48,481 nt of DNA from Chloroflexi bacterium OHK40 (GTDB taxonomy: Bacteria; Chloroflexota; Chloroflexia; Chloroflexales; Chloroflexaceae), in assembly GCA_004367505.1 (NCBI GenBank), contig SFCB01000242.1, positions 1 through 48,481 of the forward strand, given 5' to 3'. The number at the start of each line of letters is the position of its first letter. Within the stretch, counting starts at the first letter, position 1. The position numbers and the translations under genes are program-made. Below are positions 12,598 through 22,565 of the stretch, one piece after another. Under the pieces are notes generated by a model. That model was given only the letters and a program-made list of their open reading frames with translations. It searched no databases and was not told the origin of the DNA.

Positions 12598-13602
12598 TCA
12601 GCGCGCGGCATCCGCGCCTGTGGCGATCGCGATCGTGCCGCCCGGCGCGAAGTTGGCCATGAGGTAGCGCAGCGACTGCTCGCGGTCCGCGCCGCCAGCG
12701 CCGCCCAGGATCAACTCCTCACCAAAGGCGGCGATATCCTGCACGATCCGCTCGTAGCGGTAGTACGCCAGCGCCACCTGGTCGAGTTGCGCCGGGCCAT
12801 AGCCCGCGTAGAACAGGCGTGTCTCCTCGTCCGGGCTCACGCCGACGAACCCCTGCCCGCCGCCGATGAACATCAGGTCGCGCTCTCTGGGCGCGCGGAT
12901 GAGGGTGTCCCAGTCAACCAGGTAGAGATGCCCCTCGGCGTCGATCAGCAGGTTGCCCGCGTGCAGGTCGCCATGGCAGATCACCGTCGGGCGCGCGTCG
13001 TCCCGCAGCCTCCGGGCGAGGGTCTCGGCTCGCTCGACGAGTGCGAGAATCGTCTCGCGGTGTGCCTGGAGGCCCACGGCGGCGCGGGCCGCTATGGCGT
13101 CGGGCGGCGCCGGGAGCTGCGCCAGTAGCGCTCGCACCTGGCGGCGGGCCTCGTCCCCATACGTTTCGTGCCGGATGGCCTGCCCGAGCGCGGCGGGGGG
13201 CGTGGCACTGTGGAGCTGGCGGACGGCGGCGCCGAAGCTGTGCCACTGGCGTTCGCTGAGCGGCGTGCCATAGGCGTCGGCGCCGGCTACAAAGGGGTAA
13301 CGCACGACGGTGAAGGGGCCGAGCTGTGTCCAGAGCTGCCCTGCGGTGGTCGGTAGCGGCGGGATGATCGTTTCCATGCCCCGATCGCTCAGCCACCGGG
13401 GAAAGGCGACCGACACGCCATTGAAGGCGCCGCGCCGGAGCTTGATGAAGGATGCCTCGCCATCAGGGGCGACGGCCCTGTACACCGCCGTGCTGGTGTC
13501 GGCGCCGAGCGGGAGAAATGCGAGCGTAGCTGGCTCAAAGCCGTAGGCGTCGCGGAGACAGGCGCGCAGTTGCTCCTCGGGGAGCTCGGGCGGTTCAAGC
13601 AT
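12598..13602 (-). CDS. APH-fold phosphotransferase (spectinomycin phosphotransferase-like)
   Basis: A 334-residue kinase of the aminoglycoside phosphotransferase superfamily. The N-lobe has FIKLRRG with the ATP-binding Lys. The catalytic loop ICHGDLHAGNLLID carries the base Asp, and the Mg-binding Asp lies in LVDWD. Length and layout are close to APH(9)-type spectinomycin kinases, but the superfamily also phosphorylates choline, homoserine and sugars. It lies opposite to its carbohydrate-gene neighbours and has its own promoter (TTGTCA-N17-TACTAT). The start ATG at 13602 has only a weak SD sequence. The actual substrate is unknown. Confidence 0.85.
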   Translation of the reverse strand: MLEPPELPEEQLRACLRDAYGFEPATLAFLPLGADTSTAVYRAVAPDGEASFIKLRRGAFNGVSVAFPRWLSDRGMETIIPPLPTTAGQLWTQLGPFTVVRYPFVAGADAYGTPLSERQWHSFGAAVRQLHSATPPAALGQAIRHETYGDEARRQVRALLAQLPAPPDAIAARAAVGLQAHRETILALVERAETLARRLRDDARPTVICHGDLHAGNLLIDAEGHLYLVDWDTLIRAPRERDLMFIGGGQGFVGVSPDEETRLFYAGYGPAQLDQVALAYYRYERIVQDIAAFGEELILGGAGGADREQSLRYLMANFAPGGTIAIATGADAAR

Positions 13603-13747: not shown

Positions 13748-14527
13748 ATGACCACAGGGCTGGCCAGCCAGGTTGCGCTGGTCACCGGGGCGGGTGCCGG
13801 GATCGGCTACGCGATCGCCGAGGTTCTGGCGAACGCCGGGGTCGCCGTCGCGCTCAACGATCTGCGCGCGGATCTGGCTGTGGCGGCGGCGGCACGGATC
13901 AACGCCGGGCTTCCGGCCCCGCTGGTGACGGCTTACCCGGGCGATGTTGCCGACGTAGTGGCGATGCGCGCGCTGTTGGAGCGGATCGGCGCTGAGCGTG
14001 GTGGGCCCCACATCTGCGTGGCCAACGCCGGGATCACCCGCTTTGCGCGCTTCCTTGAGGCCGAGCCGGCAGAGTTCGATGAGCTCACCGCCGTGAATCT
14101 GCGCGGCAGCTACTTCACCGCCCAGGCCGCCGCACGGGCCATGGTTGCGCAGGGGATCGCCGGGCGGATCGTGCTGCTCGCCTCGGTGACTGGCCTCCGG
14201 GCGATCCGTGGGCTGAGTGCGTACAGTATCACCCGGGCCGGGACGATGGCCATGGCCCGCTCACTTGCGCTGGAGCTCGGCCCTTACGGGATCACCGTCA
14301 ACGCTATCGCACCCGGGGCCACACTCACCGAACGCACCCGCGCCGAGACGCCGAACTACGCCCGAGACTGGGGCGCCCTCACCCCGACCGGCCGGGCTAG
14401 CGAGGGGGCCGATATCGCCGCCGCCGTGCGCTTCCTCGTCTCGCCCGAGGCCGCCCAGATAACCGGGCAGACCCTCGTTGTGGACGGTGGCTGGTCGGTC
14501 GTTGGCCTGGTTCCCGAGGGGTATTAG
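13748..14527 (+). CDS. Short-chain dehydrogenase/reductase with Arg at the catalytic Lys position
   Basis: A 259-residue classical SDR. The Rossmann motif TGAGAGIG (about residues 14-21) and NAG support NAD(P) binding, and the C-terminal TGQTLVVDGGW is typical of the FabG-like branch. The catalytic Ser146 and Tyr159 are 13 residues apart as expected. The residue at Tyr+4 is Arg163 (YSITR), where nearly all SDRs have Lys. An AAGGGGG SD element precedes the ATG at 13748. It heads a plus-strand run with an FAD oxidoreductase, a GH127-LarA fusion and an FGGY kinase, which suggests oxidation or reduction of a sugar or sugar acid. The substrate is not known. Confidence 0.88.
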   Translation: MTTGLASQVALVTGAGAGIGYAIAEVLANAGVAVALNDLRADLAVAAAARINAGLPAPLVTAYPGDVADVVAMRALLERIGAERGGPHICVANAGITRFARFLEAEPAEFDELTAVNLRGSYFTAQAAARAMVAQGIAGRIVLLASVTGLRAIRGLSAYSITRAGTMAMARSLALELGPYGITVNAIAPGATLTERTRAETPNYARDWGALTPTGRASEGADIAAAVRFLVSPEAAQITGQTLVVDGGWSVVGLVPEGY

Positions 14528-14650: not shown

Positions 14651-14678
14651 GCACGTGCTACGCGGAGAGGAGCCCACC

Positions 14679-16055
14679 ATGCCCAACCAAACGGCCGACG
14701 TCGTGATCTGTGGGGCGGGTCTGGCCGGGGTCGCGGCGGCCTACTACCTGGCCGTCGGGCACGGCATTCGCGATATCGTCCTGGTAGACGAGCGGGAGCC
14801 GCTCTCGCTCACCAGCAGTAGTTCGACCGAGTGCTACCGCAACTGGTGGCCCGGCCCCGGCGACGCGATGGTGCGCCTGATGAACCGCAGCATCGATCTG
14901 CTGGAGGCGATCGCCCGGGAGACGGACAATCGCATCGCGCTCAACCGGCGTGGCTACCTGTTCGCCACGGGCGATCCGGCCCGTATCGATGAGTTCGTTC
15001 AGGCCGCCGAGGAGTCGGCGCGGCTCGGCGCTGGCCCGGCTCGCGTCCATCGCGGGGCGCCGGGCGACCCGGAGTACCTGCCCGCGCCGGCCGAGGGCTG
15101 GGAGGGCCTGCCCACCGGCGCCGATGTGATCATCGACCGCGCGCTGATCCGCCGCCATTTCCCCTATCTCACCGATCGGGCCGTGGTCGTGCTCCACGCG
15201 CGCCGCTGCGGCTGGCTCAGCGCCGCCGCGCTCGGTCACTACCTGCTGGAGCAGGCTCGGGCGGCAGGCGCCCGGCTGCTCCGTGGCAGCGTCACGGGCG
15301 TGGAGGTGTCCGGCGGGCGGGTGCGGGGTGTGCAGCTTGGCGCTGGGGCAGGTGGGATCGCCACCGAGCGCTTCGTCAACGCCGCAGGTCCCAGCTTCAA
15401 GCCCGTGGGGGCCATGCTCGGCCTGGAGCTGCCGGTCTTCTGCGAGCTCCACATGCGCGCAACCTTCGAGGGTGATGCCACCACCATCCCTATGGCCGCC
15501 CCGCTCGTGATCTGGATGGATCCCACCTCACTGTACCACAGTGCCCGGGAACGGGCCGAACTCGAGCGCCGCGAGGATGGGCCTGCCCTGCTCGCGCCCT
15601 ATCCGCCCGGGGTGCACCTGCGGCCCGCCGGAACCCCCGAGCGACCACAGGCGCTCGGCCTGTGGACCTTCGACATGGCCCCACGTGAGCCACTGATTCC
15701 GCCCCCTGTCGATCAGCACCACGGTGAGCTGACCCTGCGCGGGCTTGCCAGCGTGATCCCCAGCCTCGCAACGCTGGTGGAGCGCGGTACGCCCGTGCGT
15801 GTCGATGCGGGCTACTACACCAAGACGGCGGAGAACCGCCCGCTGATCGGCCCCACGCCCGTTGAGGGCGCCTACCTCATGGGCGCCATCTCCGGCTTCG
15901 GCGTGATGGGCGCCTGTGGCTTCGGCGAGCTCCTGGCCGCCCATCTGACAGGCGCCGACCTGCCGGACTACGCGGCGGCCTTTCTGCTCAGCCGCTACGA
16001 CGCCCCGGCCTACCAGCAGCTCCTCGGGCGCTGGGGATCGTCCGGGCAGCTCTAG
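14679..16055 (+). CDS. FAD-dependent oxidoreductase (DAO family)
   Basis: A 458-residue flavoprotein of the D-amino-acid oxidase/sarcosine oxidase fold. The N-terminal dinucleotide motif is VVICGAGLAGVAAAYYLA, with the acidic ribose-binding residue in IVLVDERE. The second FAD signature near the C-terminus is YLMGAISGFGVMGACG with the preceding KTAENRPLIGPTP. ATG at 14679 has a GGAGAGGAG SD sequence. Family members oxidise amines or 2-hydroxy acids with FAD. Placed before a LarA-type hydroxy-acid racemase domain, a 2-hydroxy acid or polyol-derived substrate is plausible but unproven. Confidence 0.88.
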   Translation: MPNQTADVVICGAGLAGVAAAYYLAVGHGIRDIVLVDEREPLSLTSSSSTECYRNWWPGPGDAMVRLMNRSIDLLEAIARETDNRIALNRRGYLFATGDPARIDEFVQAAEESARLGAGPARVHRGAPGDPEYLPAPAEGWEGLPTGADVIIDRALIRRHFPYLTDRAVVVLHARRCGWLSAAALGHYLLEQARAAGARLLRGSVTGVEVSGGRVRGVQLGAGAGGIATERFVNAAGPSFKPVGAMLGLELPVFCELHMRATFEGDATTIPMAAPLVIWMDPTSLYHSARERAELERREDGPALLAPYPPGVHLRPAGTPERPQALGLWTFDMAPREPLIPPPVDQHHGELTLRGLASVIPSLATLVERGTPVRVDAGYYTKTAENRPLIGPTPVEGAYLMGAISGFGVMGACGFGELLAAHLTGADLPDYAAAFLLSRYDAPAYQQLLGRWGSSGQL

Positions 16056-16138: not shown

Positions 16139-19100
16139 GTGTCGCACATCCTCCTTCCACCTGCTCTGCGCCCCTTGCCTCTGGGTGCCATCCGCCCCGC
16201 TGGCTGGCTGCGTCGCCAGCTCGCCATCCAGGCCGCCGGGCTGAGTGGCCACCTCGATCAGATCTGGCCCGATGTGGCCGACAGCGCCTGGATCGGCGGC
16301 GCCGCCGAGGGCTGGGAGCGTGGGCCATACTGGCTCGATGGCTTCATACCCCTTGCCGTGCTCCTGGACGACCCGGAGTTGCTCCGGCGTGCCCATCACT
16401 GGGTGGAGACCATCCTCGCCCGGCAGCACGCCGATGGCTGGCTCGGCCCGCTCCACGACAGTAGCGACCCGCGCCGGCGCGCCTATGATCCGTGGCCTGT
16501 CTTCGTAGCCCTCAAGGCCCTGGCCCAGTACCAGGAGGCTACCGGCGAGCCGCGTATCATCCCCGCGATGCTCCGCTTCCTGCGTTGCCTCGCCACGCTG
16601 ATCGAGCGGCAGCCGCTCTTCGACTGGGCGCGCTTTCGCTGGGCCGACCTCGGCGTAACGCTGTGCTGGCTCTACGAGCGCACCGGCGAACCCTGGCTGC
16701 TTGAGCTCGCCCGGGCCACCTATGCCCAGAGTTTCGATTGGCAGGCCCACTTCGAGCGCTTTCCCTATCGGGAGAAGCTCACCCCCGCGCAGATCTACCC
16801 CGCCGAGCCACCCCCGGGCGTCACCTTCCGCCTGGATATGGCCTCCCACGTCGTCAACAACGCGATGGCCCTCAAGCAGCCGGCGCTCTGGTGGCGGATC
16901 AGCCACGACCCCACCGCCCGCGTGGCACCCGCGCGGATGATCGCCGCGCTCGATCGCTACCATGGCCAGGCCAGCGGTCTCTTCAGCGGTGATGAGCACC
17001 TCGCCGGGCGCAGCCCCTCTCAGGGCACCGAGCTCTGCGCCGTCGTCGAGTTGATGTTCTCTCTTGAGTGCCTCATCGCCATTCTGGGCGACCCCGCTAT
17101 GGCCGATCGGCTGGAGCAACTGGCCTGGAACGCGCTGCCCGCCACCTTCTCCCCCGACATGTGGACCCATCAGTACGTGCAGCAGGCCAACCAGGTGCGC
17201 TGCGCCCACGCGCCCGAGCGGGTCTATACCAATAATGGCCCCGACGCCAACTGTTTTGGCCTGGAGCCCAACTATGGCTGCTGCACGGCCAATATGCACC
17301 AGGGCTGGCCAAAGTTCGCCGCGCACCTGTGGATGGCGACTCCGGACGGGGGTCTGGCCGCCGTAGCCTATGCGCCCTGCGCGCTCGTCGCTCCGGTTGG
17401 CGCTCAGTCGGTGTGCGTGACGGTGACGACCGACTACCCCTTCGACGAGCGCGTGGAGCTCACCGTAGCCTGCGATGAACCAGCCGACTTCCCGCTGCTG
17501 CTGCGCATCCCCGCGTGGGCCAGTGGCGCCACAGTGGCGCTGGCCGGCGAGGAGGCCAGGCCGGCCGCGCCCGGTACCTTCCACCGGATTGCCCGCACCT
17601 GGGTGGGCCGCGAGCAGCTCACTCTGCGCCTCCCCATGGCCCCACGCCTGCGACAGGGCTTCAACGGGAGCGTCACTGTCGAGCGCGGGCCGCTCGTCTA
17701 CGCGCTGCCCGTGGGCGAGGAGTGGCGCCCGGTACCGCCACGCACGCGCTCCGGGCCTACCAGCGATCCGCGCGTGGCCCACGATTTCGAGGTGCACCCG
17801 ACGACGCCATGGGCCTACGGTCTGCTGCTCGATCCCGCGCGGCCCGAGGCGCACCTGCGCTTTGAACGTCGCCCGCTCGGGCGGCTGCCTTTCTCACCGG
17901 ATGGTTCGCCGGTCGTGGCCCGGGCTCGTGGCCGTGCCGTACCTGGCTGGCAGATCGAGCGCGGCGCTGCTGCCCCACCACCCGCCGCCCCCGTCGCCAC
18001 CGGGCCCGAGGTCGATCTCACGCTGATCCCCTACGGGTGCACGAATCTCCGTGTGACCGAGCTGCCTCTCGTTTCCGCGACCGCCAACACCGGAGGTGCC
18101 GCGATGCTATTTGCCCATGCCGCCGCGCCAGGCGGCCAGACCCTCGACGCCGAGACGATCGCTGCGACCCTGCACCACGGCCTGGCCGGCCGGCTGAGTG
18201 GCGCGCGGGTGCTCGTGCTCATCCCCGACCACACCCGCACGTTGCCACTCCCCCACCTCTTCCGCTTGCTCGTCGAGGAGCTCCACGACGCTCGTGAACT
18301 CAACTTCATGGTTGCCCTGGGCACCCATCCCCCGCTCAGCGAGCCCGAACTCTGCCGGCTCGTCGGGATCAGCGCGGAAGAGCGCGCGGGTCGCTACCGT
18401 CACGTGGGGCTGTGGAACCACCAGTGGGACTCCCCCGAGGCGCTCGTTCAGCTCGGCGTCTTGCCGCGCGAGCGCATCCAGGCCCTTGCCGGCCCGCTCT
18501 GGCATCCTTCCCTCGGGGGTGATGTGCCCGTGCGGATCAACCGGGCCGCGCTCGAAGCCGACCAGATCCTGATCGTCGGGCCGACCTTCCCGCACGAGGT
18601 GATCGGCTTCTCGGGCGGCGCCAAGTACCTCTTCCCCGGTATCTCCGGCCCCGAGCTGATCCACGTCACCCACTGGCTCGGTGCCCTCGCCGGTGTCCCG
18701 GCGATCATCGGGTTCGCCGACACACCCGTGCGCGATGTTGTCCACGCCGCCGCCGAGCTCCTGCCGACGCCGATCACGCTCGTGAGCATGGTCGTGGTCG
18801 GAACCGGCCTGGCCGGGCTCTACGTGGGCGAGCATCGCGAGGCCTGGCGGGCCGCCGCCGAGCTCTCCGCCGAGCGCCATATTCGCTGGCTGGAACGGCC
18901 GGTGCAGCAGGTGCTCTCCTGGGCCGCGCCGATGTACGACGAGCTCTGGACAGCGGCCAAGGCCATGTACAAGCTTGAGCCCGTTATCGCCGATGGTGGC
19001 GAGCTCATTCTCTACGCGCCCCACCTCGCCACCGTGAGTCACGTCCATGGGCGCTACCTCTACGAGGTGGGCTACCACGTGCGTGACTACTTTCTGGGCC

Positions 19101-19366
19101 AGTGGGAGCGCTTCGCCCATGTGCCCCTCGGGGTACTCGCCCACAGCACGCACCTGCGGGGTGCCGGTACCTTCGTTGCTGGCGTGGAGCGGCCACGCAT
19201 CCGTGTGACGCTGGCCACGCAGCTACCCCCCGAAGACTGTGAGCGTCTCGCGCTGGGCTATCTCGACCCCGCGACGATCGACCCGGTCGCCTGGCAGGGT
19301 CGTGAGGATGAGGGCCTGCTCTTCGTTCCGAAAGCCGGCGAGATCCTCTATCGCTTGCGGCCGTAG
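16139..19366 (+). CDS. GH127-like glycosidase fused to a LarA-type nickel racemase/epimerase
   Basis: A 1075-residue two-domain protein. Residues 1 to about 645 are a GH127/DUF1680 (beta-L-arabinofuranosidase-type) barrel. E298-x-C300 (TELC) and the Cys381-Cys382 pair (YGCCTAN) match the Zn-thiolate catalytic site of the family, with E286 in DEHLAG as candidate acid/base. Residues 656-1075 form a full-length LarA-like (DUF2088) domain. D697 and R700 (DHTR), H730 (GTHPP), H819, K829 and H845 sit at the spacings of the L. plantarum nickel-pincer racemase. GTG at 16139 with AGGAG is preferred; ATG at 16058 is an alternative without SD sequence. There is no signal peptide, so it is cytoplasmic. 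The LarA half retains its own SD sequence and ATG at 18104. The cofactor genes larB, larC and larE are not in the window. Confidence 0.88.
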   Translation: MSHILLPPALRPLPLGAIRPAGWLRRQLAIQAAGLSGHLDQIWPDVADSAWIGGAAEGWERGPYWLDGFIPLAVLLDDPELLRRAHHWVETILARQHADGWLGPLHDSSDPRRRAYDPWPVFVALKALAQYQEATGEPRIIPAMLRFLRCLATLIERQPLFDWARFRWADLGVTLCWLYERTGEPWLLELARATYAQSFDWQAHFERFPYREKLTPAQIYPAEPPPGVTFRLDMASHVVNNAMALKQPALWWRISHDPTARVAPARMIAALDRYHGQASGLFSGDEHLAGRSPSQGTELCAVVELMFSLECLIAILGDPAMADRLEQLAWNALPATFSPDMWTHQYVQQANQVRCAHAPERVYTNNGPDANCFGLEPNYGCCTANMHQGWPKFAAHLWMATPDGGLAAVAYAPCALVAPVGAQSVCVTVTTDYPFDERVELTVACDEPADFPLLLRIPAWASGATVALAGEEARPAAPGTFHRIARTWVGREQLTLRLPMAPRLRQGFNGSVTVERGPLVYALPVGEEWRPVPPRTRSGPTSDPRVAHDFEVHPTTPWAYGLLLDPARPEAHLRFERRPLGRLPFSPDGSPVVARARGRAVPGWQIERGAAAPPPAAPVATGPEVDLTLIPYGCTNLRVTELPLVSATANTGGAAMLFAHAAAPGGQTLDAETIAATLHHGLAGRLSGARVLVLIPDHTRTLPLPHLFRLLVEELHDARELNFMVALGTHPPLSEPELCRLVGISAEERAGRYRHVGLWNHQWDSPEALVQLGVLPRERIQALAGPLWHPSLGGDVPVRINRAALEADQILIVGPTFPHEVIGFSGGAKYLFPGISGPELIHVTHWLGALAGVPAIIGFADTPVRDVVHAAAELLPTPITLVSMVVVGTGLAGLYVGEHREAWRAAAELSAERHIRWLERPVQQVLSWAAPMYDELWTAAKAMYKLEPVIADGGELILYAPHLATVSHVHGRYLYEVGYHVRDYFLGQWERFAHVPLGVLAHSTHLRGAGTFVAGVERPRIRVTLATQLPPEDCERLALGYLDPATIDPVAWQGREDEGLLFVPKAGEILYRLRP
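18092..18106 (+). promoter_or_regulatory. Internal SD sequence and in-frame ATG for the LarA domain
   Basis: GGAGGT at 18092-18097 lies six bases before an in-frame ATG at 18104. Starting there gives a 420-residue product, close to a free-standing LarA (about 424). The GH127 domain ends around 18070 with the usual LIPYGCTNLRVTE segment, so the join spans about ten codons of former spacer. Both the fusion and a separate LarA could be translated. Confidence 0.65.
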
Positions 19367-19496: not shown

Positions 19497-20987
19497 ATGC
19501 CCAGCGTCCCACTCGCCGAAGCGGAGCTCCCGCTCGTGCTCACAATCGATATCGGCTCGTCCTCGGCGCGCGTGTTGCTCTACGATCACCAGGGCCGTCA
19601 GGTGGCGGGCCTGGGCGCCACCGAGCGCTACCAGCTGCGCGCCTCCCACGATGGCGCATCCGAAGACGATCCGGAGGAGGCCCTGGCCCGTCTCTCGCGC
19701 TGCCTCGACGCAACGATGGCGCAGCTTGGTCCGGCCGCCGAGCGGATCGCCGCCGTCGCCGTGGCCACGATCGCCTCGACGCTCCTTGGCCTCGACCAGG
19801 ACGGCGCGCCGCTGACGCCGGTCTTCACCTACGCCGACACGCGCAACACCACTGATGCCGCTAGCCTGCGCGAGCGCCTCGATGAGGCCGAGGTCCACGA
19901 GCGTACCGGCTGTATGCTCCGCAGCGCCTACTGGCCGGCGCGCCTCGCGTGGCTACGCCGCAGCCGTCCGGCCCTAGTGGCCCGGGTGGCCCGCTGGGCC
20001 ACGCTGGGCGACTATCTGGAGCAGCGTCTGTTTGGGCGCGGGCGGGCCAGCCTCTCGGTGGCCTCGTGGACCGGCCTGCTCAGCCGGCGCGAGCTCATAT
20101 GGGACGGACCGCTCCTGGCCGCGCTCGGGGTCGCGCTGGAGCAACTGCCGCCCCTCGCCGATGTCGATGAGCCACTGCAAGGGCTGCTCCCGGCCTTCGC
20201 CACCCGCTGGCCCGCGCTGCGGGCGGTGCCGTGGCTCCCCGCTATCGGCGATGGCGCCGCCGCCAACCTCGGGAGCGGCTGCACCGGCCCCGGGCAGGTC
20301 GCCCTCACGGTGGGCACGACCGGGGCCCTCCGCGTCGTCACGCCCGGGGTGGCGCGCGTCCCGGCGGGCCTCTGGGTCTACCGGGTCGATCGGGGGGCGG
20401 CCCTGCTCGGGGGCGCCACGAGCGAGGGTGGCAACCTGGCCGGCTGGCTATCCCGCACCTTGCGCCTCGGCGAGCCCGCCGTGGTTGAGCGGGAGGTGCT
20501 GGCGGTGCCGCCGGATGGCCACGGGCTCACGGTGCTGCCCTTCATCGCGGGGGAGCGCAGCCCCGGCTGGGCGGGCAACGCGCGGGCCACCATCCACGGA
20601 ATCACGCTGGGGACCACCCCGGCGGAGATCGTGCGGGCGAGCCTGGAGGCGGTTGCGTACCGTTTTGCGCTGATCGCCGCCGGGTTGGAGGCGAGCGGCG
20701 TGGCCCTGGAGGGGCTGGTGGCGAGCGGCGGCGCGCTCCTGGCCTCGCCGGTCTGGCCACAGATCATCGCCGATGCGATCGGACGCCCCCTGACGCTCTC
20801 GGCTGAGACCGAGGCGACCAGTCGCGGTGTGGCGCTGCTCGCGCTACGGGCGCTTGGCCTGATCCCCGGCCTCGATGCGCTACCGGCGGCGCTCGGCGCT
20901 CGCTTCGACCCCGACCCGGCGGTCCACGCCGTCTATCAGGGCGCCATCGCCCGGCAGCGGGAGCTCTACACCCTGCTCGTGGCCTGA
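19497..20987 (+). CDS. FGGY-family carbohydrate kinase (gluconokinase-like)
   Basis: A 496-residue FGGY kinase. The N-terminal phosphate-1 motif is LTIDIGSSSARVLLYD. The catalytic base is the Asp in AIGDGAAANLGSG, followed by the adenosine-binding LTVGTTGALRVV and GGATSEGGN stretches and the C-terminal GLVASGGALLASPVW. The overall pattern resembles FGGY gluconate/sugar-acid kinases more than glycerol or xylulose kinases. ATG at 19497 is preceded by AGGAG. It follows the GH127-LarA gene by 130 bases. A sugar-acid phosphorylation step after LarA epimerisation is the favoured reading, but the substrate is inferred. Confidence 0.9.
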   Translation: MPSVPLAEAELPLVLTIDIGSSSARVLLYDHQGRQVAGLGATERYQLRASHDGASEDDPEEALARLSRCLDATMAQLGPAAERIAAVAVATIASTLLGLDQDGAPLTPVFTYADTRNTTDAASLRERLDEAEVHERTGCMLRSAYWPARLAWLRRSRPALVARVARWATLGDYLEQRLFGRGRASLSVASWTGLLSRRELIWDGPLLAALGVALEQLPPLADVDEPLQGLLPAFATRWPALRAVPWLPAIGDGAAANLGSGCTGPGQVALTVGTTGALRVVTPGVARVPAGLWVYRVDRGAALLGGATSEGGNLAGWLSRTLRLGEPAVVEREVLAVPPDGHGLTVLPFIAGERSPGWAGNARATIHGITLGTTPAEIVRASLEAVAYRFALIAAGLEASGVALEGLVASGGALLASPVWPQIIADAIGRPLTLSAETEATSRGVALLALRALGLIPGLDALPAALGARFDPDPAVHAVYQGAIARQRELYTLLVA

Positions 20988-21080: not shown

Positions 21081-22565
21081 TTAGAGCCGGTCCAGGTCGG
21101 CCAGGATCGCCCCGGCCCGCTCGGCGACCGCCGCGCGTTCGGCCGCACTCAGGCGGGCCAGGCCCAGCACCGCTGGCCCGAGGCGCGGGTTGGCGCGCAG
21201 CCGGATCTCATTGGCGCTCAGAAAGTGCCAGTAGAGCGTATTGAAGGGGCACGCGTCGTCGCCTACCCGCGCCTTTCGGTCGTAGCGGCAGCCGGCGCAG
21301 TAGTCGCTCATCTTGCCGATGTAGGCCGCGCTGGCGATGTAGGGCTTCGTCGCTACAACTCCGCCATCGGCATTCAGGCCCATGCCGATCACGTTCGGCG
21401 CCACGACCCACTCGTAGGCGTCGATGTAGCACTCCAGGAACCAGCTGTTCAGCTCCTGGGGGCGCACCCCGGCGAGCATGGCGAAGTTGCACAGCAGCAT
21501 CAGCCGCTCGATGTGGTGGGTGTAGCCGCTCGCCAGCACGCGCCGGATGGCGTGGGCCATGCAGCGCATCCCGGTCGCGCCGCTCCAGTACCACGCCGGC
21601 AGCGGCCGTTCGGCGCCCCAGGCGTTGGCCTCCCGCAGGCCGGGCATGAGCTCCCAGTAGCGGTAGTAGATGTACTCGCGCCAGCCGACAATCTGTCGCA
21701 CGAAGCCTTCGGTTGAGGCCAGGGGCGCGGCGCCCGCGTAGTAGGCCGCCTCGGCCGCGCGGCAGACCTCCAGCGGCTCCAGCAGGCCGATGTTCAGCAG
21801 CGGCGAGAGCAGCGAGTGGAACAACACCCCGTGCTCGGCGCTCATCGCGTCCTCGAAGGGCCCGAAATCTGGGAGCCGCCGCGCAACGAAGTCGTCCAGG
21901 GCTGCCAGGGCCTGCGCCCGCGTCACCGGCAGGTCGAACCCGTCCGTCGAGCCGATCGCGTTCGGGCAGAGCGCCTCGACATCGGCCATGGCCGCCAGGG
22001 TGAGCTCGTCCGGCGCAAAGCTGGGCGGAGGCGGCACCGGCCGCCCATCGTAGCGCCGGCGGTTCTCGTGGTCCAGGTTCCAGACGCCGCCCTCGGGCCC
22101 GCCCGTGCCATCCAGCAGCAGGCCGGCACGGTGCCGCAGCTCCCGGTAGAAGGGCTCCATGAGTTTCGGTGAGCGGGCGGGTGGCATCTGCTCCACCAGA
22201 AACATGCGATTGGGCAGCACCTCGACGCTCACGCCGAGCACGTCGCCCAGGGTGGCCTGCATGGCCCGTGTGTCGTACTCGGCTGCGGCCATGCACACGA
22301 GCCGGGTAACGCCGTAGGCGGCCAGATGGTCGCGCAGGCCTGTTACGAAATCCGGGGCCTGGCGCAGATCCACCTCGTACCCGGCGGCTCGGAGCTCACC
22401 GGCGAAGTGGCGCATCGCGGCGAGCAGGAGCGCGAGCTTCCGCTTGTGGTAGGGACGCTGGCGCAGACGGCCGAGCGACTCGATCAGCACCACGCGGCGG
22501 CCGGCGGCGAGGCCAGGGTGGTGCGGGGTGAGCTGGTCGCCGAGGATCCAGAGGGAGGTGCTCAT
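21081..22565 (-). CDS. FeS-type bacterial cryptochrome/(6-4) photolyase (PhrB-like)
   Basis: A 494-residue deoxyribodipyrimidine photolyase-related protein (FeS-BCP/CryPro class). The N-terminal domain (LWILGDQLTPHHP) and the C-terminal block VGWREYIYYRYW with KPYIASAAYIGKMSDYC are diagnostic. Cys335, Cys423, Cys426 and Cys439 have exactly the spacing of the [4Fe-4S] ligands reported for Agrobacterium PhrB (350, 438, 441, 454). It should bind FAD and repair (6-4) photoproducts using light, which suits a sunlit organism. It lies downstream of a small J-domain gene on the same strand and has a poor SD sequence. It ends convergent with the FGGY kinase. Confidence 0.93.
   Translation of the reverse strand: MSTSLWILGDQLTPHHPGLAAGRRVVLIESLGRLRQRPYHKRKLALLLAAMRHFAGELRAAGYEVDLRQAPDFVTGLRDHLAAYGVTRLVCMAAAEYDTRAMQATLGDVLGVSVEVLPNRMFLVEQMPPARSPKLMEPFYRELRHRAGLLLDGTGGPEGGVWNLDHENRRRYDGRPVPPPPSFAPDELTLAAMADVEALCPNAIGSTDGFDLPVTRAQALAALDDFVARRLPDFGPFEDAMSAEHGVLFHSLLSPLLNIGLLEPLEVCRAAEAAYYAGAAPLASTEGFVRQIVGWREYIYYRYWELMPGLREANAWGAERPLPAWYWSGATGMRCMAHAIRRVLASGYTHHIERLMLLCNFAMLAGVRPQELNSWFLECYIDAYEWVVAPNVIGMGLNADGGVVATKPYIASAAYIGKMSDYCAGCRYDRKARVGDDACPFNTLYWHFLSANEIRLRANPRLGPAVLGLARLSAAERAAVAERAGAILADLDRL

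Follow-up and report, generated by a model that had tools for sequence, protein, structure and literature searches.

GH127 glycosidases release a sugar, whereas LarA-type nickel-pincer enzymes act on a 2-hydroxy acid. The known products of GH127 are neutral sugars, which must be oxidized before LarA can act. A route from hexuronate via mannonate and gluconate to 6-phosphogluconate has been proposed for Thermotoga maritima. Its step from mannonate to gluconate is given in PMC7583248. Structure 4NAR is that of GntE2, a D-gluconate 2-epimerase (Desguin et al. 2020, PMC7583248). In LarA, the NPN-binding residues are R75, K184 and H200 and the catalytic residues D72, H108, H174 and K298 (L. plantarum numbering, PMC7583248). 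The described counterparts on the glycosidase side are the GH127 beta-L-arabinofuranosidases (HypBA1, 3WKW/3WRE; 4QJY).

A single reading frame carries a GH127-like and a LarA domain

The window, i.e. the whole stretch of DNA analysed (48,481 nucleotides), contains a single open frame from 16139 to 19366 (+), closed by a TAG stop codon (19366), which joins members of these two families:

16139-18103 (+), GH127-like (DUF1680) half: 655 codons from a GTG start preceded by AGGAG; PF07944 and PF20736
18104-19366 (+), LarA/GntE-like nickel-pincer 2-epimerase half: 420 codons; PF09861; 4NAR at E 6e-60; start as in the nearest stand-alone homologue

PF07944, PF20736 and PF09861 follow one another in this order, all above the curated Pfam cut-offs. 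An initial reading of the sequence alone had proposed an in-frame pairing of a GH127 (DUF1680) domain with a complete LarA domain some ten codons further on. This was borne out: the frame is open throughout, both families had been named correctly, PF07944 and PF09861 exceed their cut-offs, residues 34-419 of the 420 in the LarA half align to 4NAR, and 10 codons (18074-18103) lie between the two domains. The in-frame fusion is genuine in the assembled sequence. Both halves belong to known enzyme families and it is their pairing that seems to be undescribed.

The frame has two candidate starts, ATG 16058 and GTG 16139. The latter is the more likely because AGGAG is found upstream and homologues begin there; ATG 16058 was rejected on the same grounds. 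Counted from GTG 16139, the predicted fused protein has 1075 residues. The fused frame is the sole copy in its own genome.

The GH127-like half retains the active-site residues

In the GH127-like half, the catalytic domain (PF07944) scored 59.2 bits against a cut-off of 24.9 and the middle domain (PF20736) 56 bits, above its curated cut-off; the Pfam model of the C-terminal domain (PF20737) was unmatched in this half. Alignment located the active site as follows:

16994-17284 (+), GH127 active-site residues, from alignment to 3wre/3wkw/4qjy and eight relatives
16994 (+), E286, candidate acid/base, placed by spacing
17030 and 17036 (+), E298 and C300, part of the zinc ligand/cysteine nucleophile set with C381-C382
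17279-17284 (+), C381-C382, part of the same set with E298 and C300

The TELC and YGCC site residues noticed in the sequence-only reading are thus present, E298 and C300 in TELC and C381 and C382 in YGCC. They align to E338, C340, C417 and C418 of 3wre and, like E286, are invariant in the eight relatives. Their roles as zinc ligands, cysteine nucleophile and acid/base are those that we take to be established for GH127. Identity with an aceric acid hydrolase was considered and rejected (the score was 52 bits, far below the cut-off of 950).

Relatives of this half in other Chloroflexota are 55-64% identical and all stand-alone. They end at most about 18 codons past the motif PYGCTNLR(I/V)xEFP, which is shared by the fused protein, where it ends at about 18073. 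Genes for GH43, GH38, true GH127 and sugar ABC transporters are found around them. Four stand-alone relatives (loci G060, G272, G082 and G065) carry in-frame stops inside the match or are in pieces; they may be decaying copies, or may reflect errors of assembly or matches overrunning the gene end.

The LarA half and its genomic context

PF09861 (Lar_N) scored 72.6 bits against a cut-off of 23.3, and the closest solved structure is 4NAR. The NPN-binding residues (R45, K174 and H190) and the catalytic residues (D42, H75, H164 and K286) are all invariant in the seven sequences compared. The best NCBIfam LarA model was that of a putative hexonate epimerase (NF052594), with 151 bits against an equivalog cut-off of 500. 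Since the score stays below this cut-off, we propose rather than assign a function: the LarA half would be a member of the supergroup of D-gluconate 2-epimerases (GntE, 'hexonate epimerase'). In a quick tree, its sister is a stand-alone gene of Oscillochloris (support 99), and the surrounding clade consists of stand-alone genes.

Cofactor genes are present in the same genome, all above cut-off: larC on contig C161, and larE and larB adjacent to each other on contig C228. The gene uxaE is also present. The genome has another LarA besides the fused one, 55% identical and unfused, on a different contig (L014, C129:68000-83000). This paralogue belongs to another clade than the fused LarA; the C-terminus of an SDR-like dehydrogenase immediately precedes it and an FGGY kinase comes after it.

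On the same strand, the fusion is flanked by the following genes:

13748-14527 (+), short-chain dehydrogenase (domain search), upstream of the fusion
14655-16055 (+), FAD-dependent oxidoreductase (DAO; domain search), upstream of the fusion
19497-20987 (+), FGGY sugar kinase, gluconokinase-like (PF00370/PF02782; best NCBIfam model gntK, below cut-off), next gene in the operon

The same type of FGGY kinase comes after LarA in about a dozen relatives. In related Chloroflexota, genes of the LarA clade often stand after an SDR gene and before a 6-phosphogluconate dehydrogenase gene, two of the loci read also having UxaE, or else they adjoin an FGGY kinase. These neighbours fit the route from hexuronate to 6-phosphogluconate proposed for Thermotoga maritima.

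On the opposite strand, an APH-family phosphotransferase (12598-13602, -) resembles APH(9)-Ia; as its 227 bits fall below the cut-off of 680, it is a distant relative and is not called a resistance gene. A photolyase-related protein (DPRP, PF04244) is encoded just downstream of the FGGY kinase (21081-22565, -).

The junction keeps the start signals of larA

The region between the two halves has the following elements:

18074-18103 (+), junction: 10 codons, SATANTGGAA, from the conserved GH127 C-terminus (..PYGCTNLRVTELPLV) to the LarA start; no stop
18092-18097 (+), GGAGGT Shine-Dalgarno (SD) site, 6 nt upstream of ATG 18104 and within the fused frame

No in-frame stop was found within 150 bases on either side of the junction. 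In the alignment, ATG 18104 falls precisely on the codon at which the stand-alone Oscillochloris larA starts. It has GGAGGT 6 nt upstream, a rare arrangement: GGAGG occurs 4-10 nt upstream of 3 of the 167 in-frame internal ATGs of genes in the window, ATG 18104 being one of the three. The fused frame has therefore kept the signals from which a stand-alone larA would be started. That they are used, giving dual translation, we infer from this one SD, a motif with a background of about 1% per internal ATG.

With a strong SD and the ancestral start at 18104, the locus might in practice make two proteins, read-through being minor or the fusion being cleaved, and the missing stop would then be neutral. 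However, the frame holds no stop and no known cleavage site, and nothing would make a ribosome that began on GH127 stop at the end of that half. We regard this possibility as very doubtful.

A fused frame could also arise by a sequencing or assembly artefact, if a stop or a frame change between adjacent but separate genes had been lost in the consensus. The fusion is known from one assembled genome sequence alone, which is split into 301 contigs, and the genomes compared include no other member of the genus; all relatives have separate genes, and a single substitution would turn GGA 18092 in the linker into TGA. However, GH127 homology continues in frame to 18073 and in-frame LarA homology starts at 18104, which would confine any error to 30 bases. 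After a shift of frame in this stretch, GH127 would run some 30 or more codons into LarA (its next stop being TGA 18195, or else lying beyond 150 bases), an overlap unlike those usually found between genes. Moreover, the sole codon one substitution away from a stop sits in the SD, and a stop at this place would destroy GGAGGT. Such an artefact is unlikely.

In three related loci (L067, L070 and L122), the upstream SDR gene ends in codons (GGAGGGGTATAG) that also serve LarA as its ribosome-binding site. With so tight a junction, neighbours such as SDR and LarA are only a small step from a fusion.

The fusion was found in one genome

No other GH127-LarA fusion was detected in searches of 41 genomes of the family, 158 of the class and 400 of the phylum (Chloroflexota). 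LarA was absent from the several kilobases read around each of about 20 relatives of the GH127 half. Conversely, none of 91 LarA relatives was fused to anything or had a GH127 of the fused type nearby, the set of loci examined for open frames upstream of LarA numbering 92, with the Oscillochloris locus in it twice. The 80 loci with the best LarA alignments took in some Deinococcota, Acidobacteriota, Planctomycetota and Verrucomicrobiota; in these loci, too, no GH127 of the fused type was nearby. Three candidates with an open frame upstream of LarA were rejected as fusions: in L154 and L114, which have the two longest such stretches among the LarA loci checked, the frame is an out-of-frame overlap with an SDR gene in GC-rich DNA, and in L104 an out-of-frame overlap with another gene.

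The family, class and phylum searches and the 91 LarA loci thus gave no sign of a conserved GH127-LarA family with the fusion in more than one lineage. As no other fusion was found and the LarA half sits in a stand-alone clade, the fusion is, as far as the searched genomes show, derived and confined to one genome. The separate genes in close relatives that the sequence-only reading had envisaged as a counter-case do exist, since all relatives have them apart, but none of these relatives shares the locus of the fusion. That reading had also taken the pairing to be undescribed and to create a new biochemical combination by channelling. The first part holds, as the architecture was found neither in the literature searched nor in the 400 Chloroflexota genomes; the second is unsupported.

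A probable recent joining of two operon genes

We consider it likely that a GH127-like gene and a GntE-type larA gene came to abut in the same frame with no stop between them, yielding a read-through chain together with free LarA, and that the halves act as their stand-alone kin do. The best explanation is that this joining is recent, because it is seen in one genome only, because the relatives have separate genes that are not side by side, and because the ancestral LarA start and ribosome-binding site have been kept. The two genes would have come end to end within one carbohydrate operon. Ribosomes starting at 16139 would read through to give the 1075-residue two-domain protein, and GGAGGT with ATG 18104 would probably give additional free LarA. 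The GH127 half would most likely hydrolyse a glycoside by its zinc-cysteine site. The LarA half, loaded with the nickel-pincer nucleotide supplied by LarB, LarC and LarE, would epimerise C2 of an aldonate, e.g. D-mannonate/D-gluconate, and the aldonate product would be phosphorylated by the downstream FGGY kinase. The open frame, the domains and catalytic residues, the cofactor genes, the occurrence in one genome and the kept SD and start are observed; the substrates and the independent action of the two halves we infer.

Channelling from glycoside cleavage to epimerisation, as suggested in the sequence-only reading, was not borne out: the fusion is in one genome only, the relatives are separate and the internal LarA start is kept. 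Direct channelling is also disfavoured because a sugar is not a 2-hydroxy acid, so that the two activities have to be bridged by a dehydrogenase and perhaps also by a lactonase. This difficulty would be circumvented in a selected bifunctional enzyme where the tether raises flux and GH127 frees an acid (from an aldobionate or uronate glycoside) directly usable by LarA. Both active sites are intact, the gluconokinase-like gene is directly downstream and the GH127-like genes of relatives lie in carbohydrate loci, all of which would suit such an enzyme. Nevertheless, no relative conserves the fusion, the linker is short and not conserved in sequence, the internal start is retained, and the known GH127 products are, by established knowledge, neutral sugars to be oxidized first. 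A selected bifunctional enzyme is therefore improbable. In its strict form, where the GH127 half frees an acidic sugar and the tethered LarA epimerises it directly, ahead of the kinase of the next gene, we find the proposal highly improbable.

In the preferred reading of a recent joining, the locus mainly illustrates how adjacent genes of an operon come to encode one two-domain protein when no stop divides them, the start of the second gene being kept. The joining itself is so far without sign of function, and what is joined looks like two ordinary sugar-breakdown enzymes rather than a new biochemical machine. We know of no other glycosidase tethered to a nickel-pincer enzyme; should the fused chain be produced and be functional, it would to our knowledge be the first, and would show that a LarA domain tolerates a large N-terminal partner. 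The analysis also places this LarA clade, by its neighbours, in a hexuronate-to-gluconate route of Chloroflexota.

Comparison with known systems

The GH127 half shares with the GH127 beta-L-arabinofuranosidases the catalytic and middle domains, matched above the Pfam cut-offs, the zinc Glu-Cys-Cys-Cys set and the candidate acid/base Glu. It is nevertheless very distant from 3WKW, 3WRE and 4QJY, the best phmmer stretch covering only about 230 residues, and, in contrast to HypBA1-type GH127, it has no PF20737 match and bears LarA at its C-terminus.

Oscillochloris sp. ZM17-4 has a stand-alone LarA (L011/L062) that is 73% identical to the LarA half, with the same start position and an SD of its own; it differs in being a separate gene, with neither GH127 nor FGGY kinase beside it. 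The LarA half departs from GntE2 (4NAR; groups 18-20, PMC7583248) in being joined to a GH127-like domain and in scoring 151 bits, below cut-off, on the NCBIfam group-18 model. It has the same NPN-binding and catalytic residues as GntE2 and shares the EV loop and W features of groups 18-20 (PMC7583248), and the neighbours of the GntE2-type pathway (UxaE, SDR, kinase and 6PGD) are seen in loci related to it.
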